DNA of 64,000 nt from Candidatus Sumerlaeota bacterium. GTDB taxonomy: Bacteria; Sumerlaeota; Sumerlaeia; JAFGJS01. Both the position numbers and the translations under genes were made by a program. This document shows, piece by piece, positions 5,600-63,097 of this stretch (positions are counted from its first letter, which is position 1; every line of letters starts with the position of its first letter). The stretch spans positions 1 through 64,000 of the forward strand of contig JAFGJS010000086.1 in assembly GCA_016928995.1 (NCBI GenBank). The letters are read 5' to 3'. Under the pieces are notes generated by a model, which worked only from the letters and a program-made list of their open reading frames with translations, was not told where the DNA came from and searched no databases.

Positions 5600-5656
5600 G
5601 GATCTATCCGGCAGATCCATCCATTTCTGGCAACCCAATCCGGCCGATCCGGCCGT
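5600..5656. repeat. 9-bp-periodic TCCGG array (copy 1)
   Basis: The spacer between proA and the GH43 gene contains ATCC/ATCCGG units at 9-bp steps: 5606 and 5615, then ATCCGGCCG twice in direct tandem (5638-5655). GGATCT/AGATCC (5600-5605 with 5613-5618) forms a small hairpin. It resembles arrays at 8453, 15923 and 41733. Confidence 0.5.
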
Positions 5657-5695
5657 GGATCAAACAGGCATAGAGAAAGCGAGCAGACAGACAAC

Positions 5696-6703
5696 ATGCA
5701 AAAGTCCATCAAATCCGGCGAGCAATGGCTGGATACCGAAGGTGTGTTCATTCAAGCGCATGGCGGCGGGATTCTGTATCACGAAGGAGTCTACTATTGG
5801 TACGGCGAGAATAAAGATTATCCGCAGAACTTCCGGGAAAAACGCATCAATGTGATCGGCATTTCGTGCTATTCCTCCACGGATCTCTGCAACTGGAAAA
5901 ACGAGGGCCTCGTGTTGTCCGCTGTTCCGGACGATCCGGATCATGACCTGCATCCATCCAAGGTGCTCGAACGGCCCAAAGTGGAGTACAATGAAAAGAC
6001 CGGCAAGTTCGTGATGTGGATGCATATCGACGCCCACCGGTATCGCTATGCGGCGGCGGGCGTGGCCGTGGCGGATTCGCCCACCGGCCCGTTCACCTAT
6101 ATCGAAAGCGTGAATCCCGAAGGTCAGGACAGCCGCGATCAGACCCTATTCAAGGATGACGACGGCAAAGCGTACCGGATCTATTCATCCGAAGACAACA
6201 TGACCACGTATATTTCGCTGCTGAGCGATGATTACCTGAAGCACACTGGCGAATATGCCCGGGCGTTCGAGAATCGCATGATGGAAGCGCAAGCGGTCTG
6301 CAAACGCGGCGGGAAGTACTACATGTTCGCTTCGGGCTGCAGCGGCTGGGCGCCCAACACCGCCCGTTGCGCCGTGGCCGATTCAATCATGGGCCCCTGG
6401 AAGGAACTGGGCAATCCCTGCCTGGGCGAAGGCATGGAGCGGACCTTCGAATCGCAAAGCGCGTTTATTTTGCCGGTCGCTGGTCAATCGGACGCGTTCA
6501 TTTTCATGGCTGACCGCTGGAATCCAAAAAATCTGGGCGATTCCCGTTACATCTGGTTGCCGATTGAATTTCATGAGCGCCGGATCGCCGCCGGCCCCGG
6601 TTTTCGTGAATACGATCCCGATCCTGACGATCCACGCGCGGAAACGCTGGTTGTTCCTGAAATCCGCTGGCGCGACGAATGGGATTTGTCTTTTTTTGCC
6701 TGA
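5696..6703 (+). CDS. GH43 family exo-beta-1,3-galactanase-like enzyme
   Basis: 335 aa five-bladed-propeller-type glycosidase with no signal peptide. The N-terminus (WLDTEG, QAHGGGILY, YYWYGENK) matches the exo-beta-1,3-galactanase branch of GH43 (subfamily 24). Candidate active-site residues are Glu92 (LERPK), Asp148 (SRDQT), Glu197 (MMEAQ) and Gln254 (FESQS). Their spacing closely follows Glu102/Asp158/Glu208/Gln263 of the fungal enzyme Pc1,3Gal43A, where Gln acts in place of the usual Asp base. It would release galactose from beta-1,3-galactan main chains. The lack of a signal peptide suggests cytoplasmic action. The GH43 family call is strong; the substrate is inferred. Confidence 0.8.
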   Translation: MQKSIKSGEQWLDTEGVFIQAHGGGILYHEGVYYWYGENKDYPQNFREKRINVIGISCYSSTDLCNWKNEGLVLSAVPDDPDHDLHPSKVLERPKVEYNEKTGKFVMWMHIDAHRYRYAAAGVAVADSPTGPFTYIESVNPEGQDSRDQTLFKDDDGKAYRIYSSEDNMTTYISLLSDDYLKHTGEYARAFENRMMEAQAVCKRGGKYYMFASGCSGWAPNTARCAVADSIMGPWKELGNPCLGEGMERTFESQSAFILPVAGQSDAFIFMADRWNPKNLGDSRYIWLPIEFHERRIAAGPGFREYDPDPDDPRAETLVVPEIRWRDEWDLSFFA

Positions 6704-9990: not shown

Positions 9991-12747
9991 ATGAGCGAAT
10001 TGAGCAGCCGGTTTTCGCCGGCGGAGATCGAGGAGAGGCAACTGGAGTTTTGGAACGGCAAGGGCTTTTACGGCCCGGTCGAGGATCCGAAACAGGGAAA
10101 TCTATCACGCAAGAGCTACGTCATCGCGATTCCGCCGCCGAACGTCACCGGCATCCTGCACATGGGCCACGCGCTGAACAATACGCTGCAGGACATCCTG
10201 ATCCGCTGGCGGCGCATGCAAGGCTACAACACGCTGTGGGTGCCGGGCACGGACCACGCCTCGATCGCCACGGAAAGCAAGGTGACGACGAAACTGCGCA
10301 AAGAAGGCATCGATAAGCACGAGATTGGCCGCGACGAGTTCCTCAAGCACGCCTGGGAATGGACCGAGGAGTACGGCGGCACGATTATCAAGCAACTCAA
10401 GCGCATGGGCTGCTCGTGCGATTGGACGCGCGAACGCTTCACCATGGACGAGATGTGCAGCAAGGCCGTGCGCGCGGCGTTCAAGCGGCTGTATGACAAG
10501 GGGCTGATTTATCGCGGCAAGTATCTCGTAAACTGGTGCCCGAGCTGCCAGACTGTGATTTCAAACGACGAGGTGGAGTATAAAGAGCAGAACGGCCATC
10601 TGTGGCATATTCGCTATCCGCTGAAGGTCGAACAAGAGAACACGGGCGAGACGCCCGTGCCACAATATCTCGTCGTGGCCACGACGCGTCCGGAGACGAT
10701 GCTGGGCGACACGGCCGTGGCGATCAATCCGAAGGATGAGCGCAATCAGCATCTGCTGGGCCAGACGGTGATCCTGCCGCTGATGAACCGGGAGATTCCG
10801 GTGATCGCCGACGAGTTCGTTGATCCGGAATTCGGCACGGGTTGCGTGAAGGTGACGCCCGCGCACGACCCGAACGACTTCGACATGGGACGCCGTCACA
10901 ATCTGGAGATGATCAACATCCTCAACGAAGACGGCACGCTGAACGAGAACACCGGCGCATATGCCGGGATGGATCGCTACGACGGCCGCAAGCAAGTCGT
11001 CGCCGATCTGGAGGCGCAGGGGCTGCTGGAAAAGATCGAGGATTACAAGAACAACATCGGCTGCTGTTATCGCTCCGGCGACGTGGTGGAGCCATTCCTC
11101 AGCGACCAGTGGTTCGTGAAGATGAAGCCGCTGGCCGAACCGGCGATCAAGGCTGTGCGCGAGGGCCGCACGAAGATCGTGCCGAAGCAATATGAAAACA
11201 CCTACTACCACTGGATGGAGAACGTGCGCGACTGGCCCATCTCGCGGCAGCTCTTCTGGGGCCATCGCATTCCGATCTGGTTCTGCAAAGACGATCCAAC
11301 GAAGATGATCTGCTGGGGCGGCGAGGGCAATCCGCCTGAAGTGGACGCCGATCCGGACGCTTGGCGGCAGGAGGAAGACATCCTCGACACCTGGTTCAGC
11401 AGCGCGCTCTGGCCCTTCAGCACGCTGGGCTGGCCGGATGAGACGCCGGACCTGAAGGCGTTCTATCCGACGAGCACGCTGGTGACGGCGCACGAGATCC
11501 TGTTCTTCTGGGTTGCGCGCATGATCATGATGGGCCTGGAATGTATGGACGACGTGCCGTTCAGCGACGTGTACATCCATGCGATGATTTTCGACCTGGA
11601 GACGCGCTCGAAGATGAGCAAGAGCCTGGGGAACATCATCGATCCGTTGGAGATGATCGACAAATACGGCGCGGACGCCATGCGCTACACGCTATGCGCA
11701 TACGCCATCACAGGGCGCAACATCTACCTGAGCGAGCAGCGCTTCGAGGGCTATCGCAACTTCATGAACAAAATCTGGAACGCCTCGCGCTTCGTGCTGA
11801 TGAACACGGAAAGCCTGGACGCCGGGACGTTCGCGCGCGGCGTGAAGCCGGACGAGTTGAAACTGGAGGATCGCTGGATTTTGCATCGTCTGCGCACGAC
11901 GATCAGCGAAGTGAATCGCAACATGGAGCGCTTCGCCTTCGACGCAGTGGGGCACGACATCTATCATTTCATCTGGGACGATTATTGTGACTGGTACGTG
12001 GAACTGGCCAAGGCGCGTTGCACGGGCGAGGATGCGCGCGACAGGGAAGTGGCGCAGATCGTGCTGATCAGCGCGCTGGACGCGGTCTTGCGCTTGATGC
12101 ATCCTATTTCGCCGTTCGTAACGGAGGAACTCTGGCAGATTCTGAAGGAACGCTTTGGCGGAGCGGCCGCGGACGGAGCCGGCGTTTCAAACTCCAGCGT
12201 CGCGGCCCTGGCGTCGGATTCGATCATGACCGCTTCATATCCGGCCGCGGAAGATTACGCCGAAGACGCCAAGGCGGAAGAGGCGATGACGCAGTTGCAG
12301 GAGATCATCACGGCGATCCGCCGTTTGCGCGCGGGCGTGAATCTGCCGCCGAAAGAGCGGACGAATATTTACATCGCGGCGGATGATTGCTCGACGCGGG
12401 TGTTCGTCACGACGCATCAGACCTACATCGCGTCGTGCGTCCCGGCCGATGAGATTATAATTCGCGACGAGATTCAAGCTGATGGCTGCGCGCTCACGGA
12501 GCAGCTGGAAAAACTGCGTGTGGCGATTCCGATCAGCGCCGAAGTGCGCGACAAGGAAGTGCAGCGCTTGCAGAAAGAAATCGGCAAGCTGGAAGGCGGG
12601 CTGGCCGGTTTGGAGAAAAAACTCGGCAACGAAAACTTTGTCAACAACGCCAGTCCGGATGTCGTGGAGAAGGAACGTAAGCGTCAGCAGGAGATGCAGA
12701 ACGACCTTGCTCGGGCGCAGGAAAAGCTCGCCGCGCTGCAAGGTTGA
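9991..12747 (+). CDS. valS: Valyl-tRNA synthetase
   Basis: 918 aa class I synthetase that charges tRNA-Val. The start ATG at 9991 follows GGAGG (9977-9981). Motifs: HMGH (HIGH box, about 56-59) after PPPNVTG, the editing-domain TTRPETMLGDTAV (about 230-242), and KMSKS (about 541-545). The C-terminal coiled-coil arm (about 845-918) typical of ValRS is present. Odd point: residues 216-225 (ENTGETPVPQ) are encoded by a 26-bp palindromic repeat inserted just before the conserved VVATTRPETM stretch, in frame. It appears to be tolerated in a surface loop of the CP1 editing region. Confidence 0.97.
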   Translation: MSELSSRFSPAEIEERQLEFWNGKGFYGPVEDPKQGNLSRKSYVIAIPPPNVTGILHMGHALNNTLQDILIRWRRMQGYNTLWVPGTDHASIATESKVTTKLRKEGIDKHEIGRDEFLKHAWEWTEEYGGTIIKQLKRMGCSCDWTRERFTMDEMCSKAVRAAFKRLYDKGLIYRGKYLVNWCPSCQTVISNDEVEYKEQNGHLWHIRYPLKVEQENTGETPVPQYLVVATTRPETMLGDTAVAINPKDERNQHLLGQTVILPLMNREIPVIADEFVDPEFGTGCVKVTPAHDPNDFDMGRRHNLEMINILNEDGTLNENTGAYAGMDRYDGRKQVVADLEAQGLLEKIEDYKNNIGCCYRSGDVVEPFLSDQWFVKMKPLAEPAIKAVREGRTKIVPKQYENTYYHWMENVRDWPISRQLFWGHRIPIWFCKDDPTKMICWGGEGNPPEVDADPDAWRQEEDILDTWFSSALWPFSTLGWPDETPDLKAFYPTSTLVTAHEILFFWVARMIMMGLECMDDVPFSDVYIHAMIFDLETRSKMSKSLGNIIDPLEMIDKYGADAMRYTLCAYAITGRNIYLSEQRFEGYRNFMNKIWNASRFVLMNTESLDAGTFARGVKPDELKLEDRWILHRLRTTISEVNRNMERFAFDAVGHDIYHFIWDDYCDWYVELAKARCTGEDARDREVAQIVLISALDAVLRLMHPISPFVTEELWQILKERFGGAAADGAGVSNSSVAALASDSIMTASYPAAEDYAEDAKAEEAMTQLQEIITAIRRLRAGVNLPPKERTNIYIAADDCSTRVFVTTHQTYIASCVPADEIIIRDEIQADGCALTEQLEKLRVAIPISAEVRDKEVQRLQKEIGKLEGGLAGLEKKLGNENFVNNASPDVVEKERKRQQEMQNDLARAQEKLAALQG
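10638..10663. repeat. GTGGCAC/GTGTTC palindrome inside valS
   Basis: Read on the minus strand the unit starts GTGGCACGGGCG and ends CGCCCGTGTTC. CACGGGCG (10641-10648) and CGCCCGTG (10652-10659) form a perfect 8-bp stem with a 3-nt AGA loop. The same GTGGCAC-stem-GTGTTC layout occurs between genes at 58220-58246 with a different stem. Here it is translated as NTGETPVP. Confidence 0.85.
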
Positions 12748-58149: not shown

Positions 58150-58219
58150 GAATAGCTCCCTGTTCCATTCGCTTTCGTTTCAGAGCAGTTCTCGAATGTT
58201 TTGTTCGCATCCCTTGAAT

Positions 58220-58246
58220 GTGGCACAGCCGCCCTCGGCTGTGTTC
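58220..58246. repeat. GTGGCAC/GTGTTC palindrome (intergenic copy)
   Basis: GTGGCAC leads into CACAGCCG (58224-58231), a CCCT loop and CGGCTGTG (58236-58243), then TTC. Same flanks as the valS copy at 10638-10663 (minus strand), but a different stem, so the palindrome is conserved in structure rather than sequence. It lies upstream of the DUF4838 gene. Confidence 0.8.
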
Positions 58247-58352
58247 TCTTCCCATTCGGACAATACTTTCGAGAGATGCTATATTGCTGAGACGAATTTC
58301 GTTTTCTCGCAAGCCAAAACAACCTAGCGCAAATTTTGCATAAGACAACACC

Positions 58353-61491: not shown

Positions 61492-61609
61492 TTCTGAAAA
61501 GCATTGAGCAGATTCGCGAAAAAAAATGCAACCATCGCGCCTGTCTGTTGTCGGATGAAAATAATCCTGAGCCAGGCGCTGCGCAATACGCCGAAAGGAA
61601 CGTGAGATC

Positions 61610-62311
61610 ATGGCGATGCAATCGAGACAAACCAGCCGGGGATTGAGTGTAATCGAAATGCTGATTATCATTTCGATGGTTATGATTCTGACAACCATCG
61701 CTTGCCAGCAGAATCAGAGTCGCGGTGTGCGGAGTTGGGTTTCTCGCGTGAAGGCCGATCAGCGTTCTTTGGCCACGGCCATCGAAGCCTACTTTGTGGA
61801 TCATAATGCATATCCGGCCATGGCGAGTGGAGCTAATGGCGAGAATGAATTGTTCAAGTCAGGAACAGGGGCGTATCAAATGTGCACTTTTCGGTCGTCC
61901 AATGGGAGCGGTCTTTGCACATTGACGACTCCGATCAGCTACATCCCGGCGTATCCTCCGGATCCCTTTGCGGACTCAAAAGGTCCAACTTTTGGTTACC
62001 GGCAATTCGAATACACATGGGTGTTGATCAGCTACGGTCCGGACCGTGATGAGAACGCCAAGCCGCATTCTGGCGATCATTATAACACCGTTTGCACGGT
62101 GAAGTTAAATAAGAAAGGCGGAGGAATTTTCGGCAAGTTTTTTGCCAGCCGTAATTTCGATAAAAATTTCGAGCCCAGTTTCCAGCTCGATATCGGCCAG
62201 CCATCGCTGGAGTATCTAAGCAGCCTAGGCGTCAAGAGTATGCACGCATTGCATTACGATCCAAGCAACGGCACAGTCAGCGAAGGCGATATCGTGCGAG
62301 TGAAGCAATAA
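61610..62311 (+). CDS. Pseudopilin-like protein 1
   Basis: 233 aa. The prepilin signal is SRG|LSVIEMLIIISMVMIL, with Glu at +5. The N-terminal helix continues through SWVSRVKADQRSLATAIEAYFVDH. It then has TTPISYIPAYPPDPFAD, a YGPDRDENAKPHSGDH loop and the C-terminal YDPSNGTVSEGDIVR. This last motif is shared with the proteins at 26.3 and 62.3 kb, so the three are paralogues. The Leu at +1 is less common than Phe. Needs PilD and pilus or T2SS machinery, absent here. Confidence 0.85.
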   Translation: MAMQSRQTSRGLSVIEMLIIISMVMILTTIACQQNQSRGVRSWVSRVKADQRSLATAIEAYFVDHNAYPAMASGANGENELFKSGTGAYQMCTFRSSNGSGLCTLTTPISYIPAYPPDPFADSKGPTFGYRQFEYTWVLISYGPDRDENAKPHSGDHYNTVCTVKLNKKGGGIFGKFFASRNFDKNFEPSFQLDIGQPSLEYLSSLGVKSMHALHYDPSNGTVSEGDIVRVKQ

Positions 62312-62326
62312 AAGGAGCGTGAGATC

Positions 62327-63097
62327 ATGTTGATGCAATCGAAGCGAAACTGTCAGGGAATAACAACGATCGATGCCCTAATCATCATTTTGCTGATAGC
62401 TATTGTTCTCGCGATAGCCGTGCCGAATTTTCTGGAATTCAAAGCTGATTTCAATGTATCGCGAGTGAAGTCGGACATGCGGGCGATTGCGACAGCACTG
62501 GAAGCATACTACGTTGATAACAGCGCATATCCGCTAATGGCTTCCGGAGCCGAAGGCGAAAACTGGCGGGCAAAAGAAAAGTCCGGCGCATATCGCATCT
62601 GCACTTTTCGCCGGGCGGATCAGTTCGCCGCAGGTTTAACGACTCCGATTGCTTATCTTTTCGATTATCCGCTGGATCCAGCGGCGGATAGTGAAAATAC
62701 GACTTACGGTTATCGAGCCTATCAAAATGGATGGGCGCTGATCAGCTTTGGCCGGGATAGGGATGAAAACGCCAAGCCGCATCCCGGAGATCACAATAAC
62801 ACCGTCTGCGTGGCAGATATTGATCCTGTGACCGGCGCCGATCGTAATTTCGAACCATCCTTTCGTTTAAATGTAACTCAGCCATCGCCAGAATATTTGA
62901 CGGCAGTCGGAAGCCTAAGCGGCAATGCGCTGCATTTCGATCCGACCAATGGAGCGGAGAGTGAAGGCGACATTGTTCGTTCTTTTGTCCGTGTGATTGA
63001 GGAACAAGGCAATGTGAAAGCTGAGTCACGGTCTTCAATGAGTACAGAATCCTTCTCTTTTGTGAATCCTGAAGACTTTATAAACACTGAAAACTGA
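62327..63097 (+). CDS. Pseudopilin-like protein 2, Asp at +5
   Basis: 256 aa. Tandem paralogue of the preceding gene (15 bp apart): AIATALEAYYVDNSAYPLMASGAEGENW and GRDRDENAKPHPGDHNNTVC match it. The signal is CQG|ITTIDALIIILLIAIVLAIAVPNF, where the +5 residue is Asp rather than Glu and +1 is Ile. The C-terminus extends ~40 residues beyond FDPTNGAESEGDIVR with a Ser/Glu-rich tail. Glu5 normally neutralises the N-terminus of the next subunit, so Asp may change assembly or mark this as a minor component. Confidence 0.8.
   Translation: MLMQSKRNCQGITTIDALIIILLIAIVLAIAVPNFLEFKADFNVSRVKSDMRAIATALEAYYVDNSAYPLMASGAEGENWRAKEKSGAYRICTFRRADQFAAGLTTPIAYLFDYPLDPAADSENTTYGYRAYQNGWALISFGRDRDENAKPHPGDHNNTVCVADIDPVTGADRNFEPSFRLNVTQPSPEYLTAVGSLSGNALHFDPTNGAESEGDIVRSFVRVIEEQGNVKAESRSSMSTESFSFVNPEDFINTEN

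Follow-up and report, generated by a model that had tools for sequence, protein, structure and literature searches.

Does the palindromic repeat that lies within valS in the window (the whole stretch of DNA analysed, 64,000 nucleotides) represent a mobile element that entered an essential gene and, if so, how did the gene survive its arrival?

The repeat in valS has the anatomy of a REP

The valS product matched Pfam tRNA-synt_1 (E 5e-136), Anticodon_1 and Val_tRNA-synt_C, as well as PDB 1gax (E 1e-204). The features of the locus are as follows:

9991..12747, (+): valS, valyl-tRNA synthetase (ValRS), 918 aa; start ATG at 9991, open frame from TTG 9898
10636..10665, (+): in-frame insert segment ENTGETPVPQ; net gain of ~9 codons versus the usual 21-residue segment
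10641..10663, (-): GTGG-tagged REP (repetitive extragenic palindrome) singlet; all 23 bp shared with 7 further copies in the genome

The 26-bp palindrome that the earlier note had described at 10638-10663, GAACACGGGCGAGACGCCCGTGCCAC, is present and is read in the valS frame as E-N-T-G-E-T-P-V-P-Q. The true unit of the repeat is a 23-bp core, GTGGCACGGGCGTCTCGCCCGTG (10641-10663), identical at 23 of 23 bases to the seven other copies. On the minus strand, it consists of the tag GTGG (10663-10660), an arm (10659-10652), the loop TCT (10651-10649), and the second arm (10648-10641), with an 8-bp stem of CACGGGCG and a hairpin z of -3.2. The unit has the build of the GTAG super-family of REPs, palindromes of 20-40 bp that carry an unpaired, GTAG-like tag on one side, and its GTGG tag is a recorded variant of GTAG (Di Nocera et al., 2013, PMC3733652).

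In the genome from which the window is taken (4.55 Mb in 161 contigs), the exact pattern of the valS family gave 22 matches, a stem-aware pattern gave 27 (reversed control, 1), and GTGGCAYGGGCRTCTYGCCCRTG at ≤3 mismatches gave 33 (reversed control, 0). The near-identical copies mostly form head-to-head dimers, GTGGCACGGGCGTCTCGCCCGTG plus GTGGCATGGGCATCTTGCCCATG, with a spacing of mostly ~20–60 bp; the valS unit is a singlet. Thirteen of the 14 clusters lie outside conserved genes, and the valS copy, the exception, is the sole member of its family within a conserved gene of this genome. A further match, C85:58229 in an 812-aa ORF, was discounted as probably due to chance, given its different stem. 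The anatomy of the family, a tetranucleotide tag (GTGG), an 8-bp stem, and a 3-nt loop, is that of a REP.

The repeat at 58220 belongs to another family

The pattern GTGGCACN{6,18}GTGTTC matched the window twice, at 10638 and 58220, and matched none of 100 shuffles. The genome-wide count of GTGGCAC-type units that the earlier note had proposed, made with the same pattern and a gap of 6–16 bases, gave 10 matches. The second match in the window comprises the following features, the extent of the larger one being drawn from a comparison of the flanks of these ten copies:

58190..58275, (+): larger imperfect palindrome around the hairpin, approximate extent; outer arms TCTCGAA..GT / AC..TTCGAGA
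58220..58246, (+): intergenic GTGG-tagged hairpin of another family; CACAGCCG-CCCT-CGGCTGTG stem-loop

Eight of the ten copies, including that at 58220, carry a stem of the AGCCG type, and most of these stand in the middle of an imperfect palindrome of ~90–110 bp. The other two, in valS and on contig C70, share a GGGCG stem and are free of long palindromic flanks. The earlier note had taken the valS and 58220 repeats to be of the same type, which holds in so far as both are built from a GTGG tag and an 8-bp stem. The two differ in the stem itself, the loop, and the flanks, so that 58220 represents a different family, and the grouping of the two repeats into one family was rejected.

The 58220 hairpin core has 8 exact-pattern copies in the genome; a copy other than that in the window is near an ORF of an IS200/IS605-family transposase (L150). 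Elsewhere in the window, two tandem, diverged ORFs at 61594-63097 (233 and 256 aa) have similar starts and a 79-nt block in common, and resemble duplicated pilin-like genes.

The insert lies in a length-variable loop of ValRS

In an alignment of 46 proteins, the segment from RYP to TTRPETM, within which the REP itself codes for TGETPVP, spans 30 residues in the window protein and 20–22 residues in 40 of the 46. The loop is therefore longer than is typical, as the earlier note had held. All of the compared ValRS relatives, which are at most 68% identical and come from other genera and families, lack the insert, and from them the empty site is deduced; 1gax, the ValRS of T. thermophilus, shows a gap at this position in the PDB alignment. 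The earlier note had reasoned that a same-length, non-repeat loop in all relatives would point to chance. The loops of the relatives are instead shorter and not repeat-like, with the exception, in length alone, of L029, which has a 31-residue segment without a REP of the valS type and thus indicates that the loop tolerates changes in length. The segments of L012 and L043 are 25 residues long. In the ValRS tree, the members of the class group together in a clade separate from all named rows.

An AlphaFold model of the window ValRS (mean pLDDT, 91) places the insert in a beta-hairpin loop, residues 212-225, between strands 195-211 and 226-231. The loop, in which pLDDT falls to ~69–82, below the rest of the model, comes directly ahead of the strand running into the conserved ATTRPETM motif. 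The model has the insert at the tip of this beta-hairpin, through which the chain passes into the editing domain. The closest structure to the model was 1gax (Z 41.3, 845 residues aligned, rmsd 7.2).

The same ValRS loop holds a different palindrome, also in frame, in Ca. Desantisbacteria (locus L064 of genome G068, valS at ~5610-5745). The loop segment there is 45 residues long and contains the palindrome GCCCGCCAATCTTGCTGGGCGGG, of which that genome has 39 copies.

A RAYT gene is flanked by REPs of the valS family

Nine matches to Y1_Tnp (PF01797) were found in the window's own genome. One of these genes, on contig C56 (L155, 1375-2019), has REP dimers of the valS family on either side, at 1220-1370 and 2020-2103. 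Its ORF of 214 aa contains MPNHWHVML, in which NHWH is a HUH-like motif, and the protein matched the NCBIfam model of REP-associated tyrosine transposases (RAYTs), REP_Tyr_transpos, with an E value of 5e-19 and a score of 68.5, below the curated cut-off of 80. We infer that this RAYT moved the copy now in valS.

A second RAYT of the same genome (L154, 1088-1894, contig C156) scores above the NCBIfam cut-off; the REPs flanking it are different and GTAG-tagged, GTAGCGCCAGCGTCTCGCTGGC.

Intragenic copies are frequent in a related genome

REPs of the valS type were found in 9 of 39 genomes of the class, with 63 copies in G006, 22 in the window's own genome, 20 in G003, 14 in G005, and 1–4 in each of five others. 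They extend beyond the class, to 7 of 119 genomes in the phylum of a Planctomycetota contig; in G189, the most REP-rich of these, a screen of frame and base composition alone gave few spanning ORFs, mostly of non-gene-like composition.

ORFs spanning REPs were sought in the surroundings of the copies in G006, G003, and others, and Pfam was run on 30 proteins. In G006, 17 of 45 REP clusters are in frame with conserved Pfam domains of the same ORF on either side or lie inside one domain, a count that favours open frames by construction; the corresponding numbers are 2 for G003 and 1 for G016. Taken together, the own genome, G003, and G005 have 3 intragenic clusters of 47, significantly fewer than G006 (Fisher p 0.0003). 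N-terminal cases, such as those in PheT (L218) and a methyltransferase (L198), were left out, as the REP is probably upstream of the true start. One REP family is thus mostly extragenic in G000, G003, and G005, yet often intragenic and in frame in G006.

The hosts in G006 are a CHASE2-cyclase, LacZ, an alpha-rhamnosidase, DNA polymerase III alpha, RNase R, ThiD, a GH2 enzyme, a DEAD helicase, a polyketide synthase (three sites on two contigs), a 3beta-HSD-like protein, an aldehyde dehydrogenase, UvrA, dihydrolipoamide dehydrogenase (Lpd), a NirDL-like regulator, and a radical SAM protein. When aligned with PDB homologues, RNase R (20 residues), Lpd, ThiD, and UvrA each showed a clean insertion; for DNA polymerase III alpha, the REP falls immediately beyond the stretch that could be aligned. 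Among five non-spanning G006 sites with same-strand flanking ORFs, Pfam revealed no split gene, and where both flanks had Pfam matches, these belonged to different genes.

The GTGG tag leaves all six frames open

The usual GTAG tag brings a TAG stop into one of the frames. The valS-type REP, with its GTGG tag, has no stop codon in any of the six. Of 35 REPs in Pfam-supported ORFs, 27 give peptides of the GTGVxPV or HGxDAxA type, and, counted by insertion, 16 of 21 use only these frames (binomial p 7e-5 versus one third). The valS copy is read in a rarer frame, as TGETPVP. This bias points to selection on the peptide, suggestively and short of proof, because the geometry of the dimers couples the GTGVxPV and HGxDAxA frames.

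Heavy intragenic loads are found in two genomes with GTGG REPs, G006 and, according to the 2013 survey, Opitutus terrae. Judged from these two genomes, it is possible, if rather doubtful, that the GTGG tag is what lets REPs live within genes, that REPs are a recurrent source of loop inserts, and that sites are hit independently across phyla. If so, REPs would recurrently supply inserts of 8–30 residues to surface loops, and the ValRS CP1 hairpin would be among the sites invaded independently in different phyla.

A tolerated mobile unit best explains the insert

These results strongly suggest that the valS insert is one mobile GTGG-REP unit, probably copied by a RAYT, which keeps the frame, is tolerated in a loop, and is most likely neutral or nearly so. 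A RAYT of the IS200/Y1 kind would have copied the unit, from a REP or a REP dimer, into the coding sequence of the valS loop, and among such copies those that preserved the frame and were tolerated in loops would then have survived. The valS copy would be translated like any other codons. Its survival is put down to three things: the net gain leaves the reading frame intact, none of its frames has a stop codon, and its residues sit at a surface beta-hairpin tip (catalytic body/CP1 editing domain) that varies in length anyway. The main claim of the earlier note, a short repeat of mobile type in frame in an essential enzyme, is therefore borne out by the copies in the genome, the REP-flanked RAYT gene, and the insert-free relatives.

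That the insert is instead kept because it is useful, for example by tuning editing or through an mRNA hairpin that regulates valS, is unlikely. The insert adjoins the conserved TTRPET editing segment, the hairpin is strong, and Ca. Desantisbacteria has independently acquired another palindromic repeat in the same loop. However, the valS REP is still a perfect copy, as expected of a recent arrival, the G006 insertions are in unrelated proteins with no common function, and the model confidence of the loop is below that of the rest of the protein. As nothing shows a benefit, the word "domesticated" in the earlier note is replaced here by "tolerated".

It is very improbable that the hairpin is removed or skipped, by ribosome bypassing or RNA processing. 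Mitochondrial byps are the precedent for bypassing, and the REPs in question are short hairpin inserts within essential genes. Bypassed elements, however, need not keep the frame, whereas the intragenic copies found do so (frame-breaking copies were sought to a limited extent, and selection of open frames biases the count), and the five G006 sites checked included no split gene. A chance palindrome in a native ValRS loop, for which the variable loop length (L029, L012, and L043) would speak, is refuted by the genome-wide copies and the controls, given that stem, loop, and tag all fit a family with seven exact copies, where shuffling predicts 0 and the reversed control gave 0.

The tolerated REP illustrates a concrete way, and one open to counting, in which selfish hairpins lengthen essential proteins. 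With at least 17 places in conserved genes of G006, REPs may supply proteins with small insertions at a steady rate. G006 would make a good natural experiment on which loops of proteins can take up extra residues. The ValRS loop, into which two unrelated palindromes have inserted, is a specific candidate hotspot.

Comparison with known systems

The closest counterparts are the intragenic GTAG/CGTC REPs, notably GTAG-20 of O. terrae, tagged hairpins of 20–40 bp that form dimers, are associated with RAYTs, and have in-frame copies in conserved genes (PMC3733652). GTAG-tagged REPs lie within genes of several species, with uvrA, dnaE2, tRNA synthetases, and RNA helicases among the targets, and most GTAG-20 repeats of O. 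terrae carry the tag GTGG (Di Nocera et al., 2013, PMC3733652). The present case differs in its host group, and ValRS is absent from the main text of that paper; the likeness to the O. terrae GTAG-20 repeats is one of tag and build.

REPINs and their RAYTs, as described in PMC3116915 and PMC2817692, likewise combine REP dimers with a RAYT gene that has such REPs on its flanks. The elements of those accounts are extragenic, whereas the valS copy and many in G006 are coding, and more than 100 copies per genome are called usual for REPs (PMC2817692), against 33 for the valS family. A search of the RepRanger paper text for intragenic REPs found none.

The Rickettsia palindromic elements (RPEs), in the accounts drawn on here (Ogata et al., 2000, 2002; PMC10969869), are also mobile palindromes in frame in essential genes. 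An RPE is ~150 bp long and encodes a conserved peptide (PMC10969869), whereas the valS REP is a 23-bp unit of RAYT type, and its family is read in five of six frames. Intragenic REPs, including those in tRNA synthetases, are therefore already known, with the Rickettsia RPEs as the classic, older precedent; what is new here is the ValRS site, the use of the ValRS loop a second time by a palindrome unrelated to the first, and the heavy burden of intragenic copies in G006.
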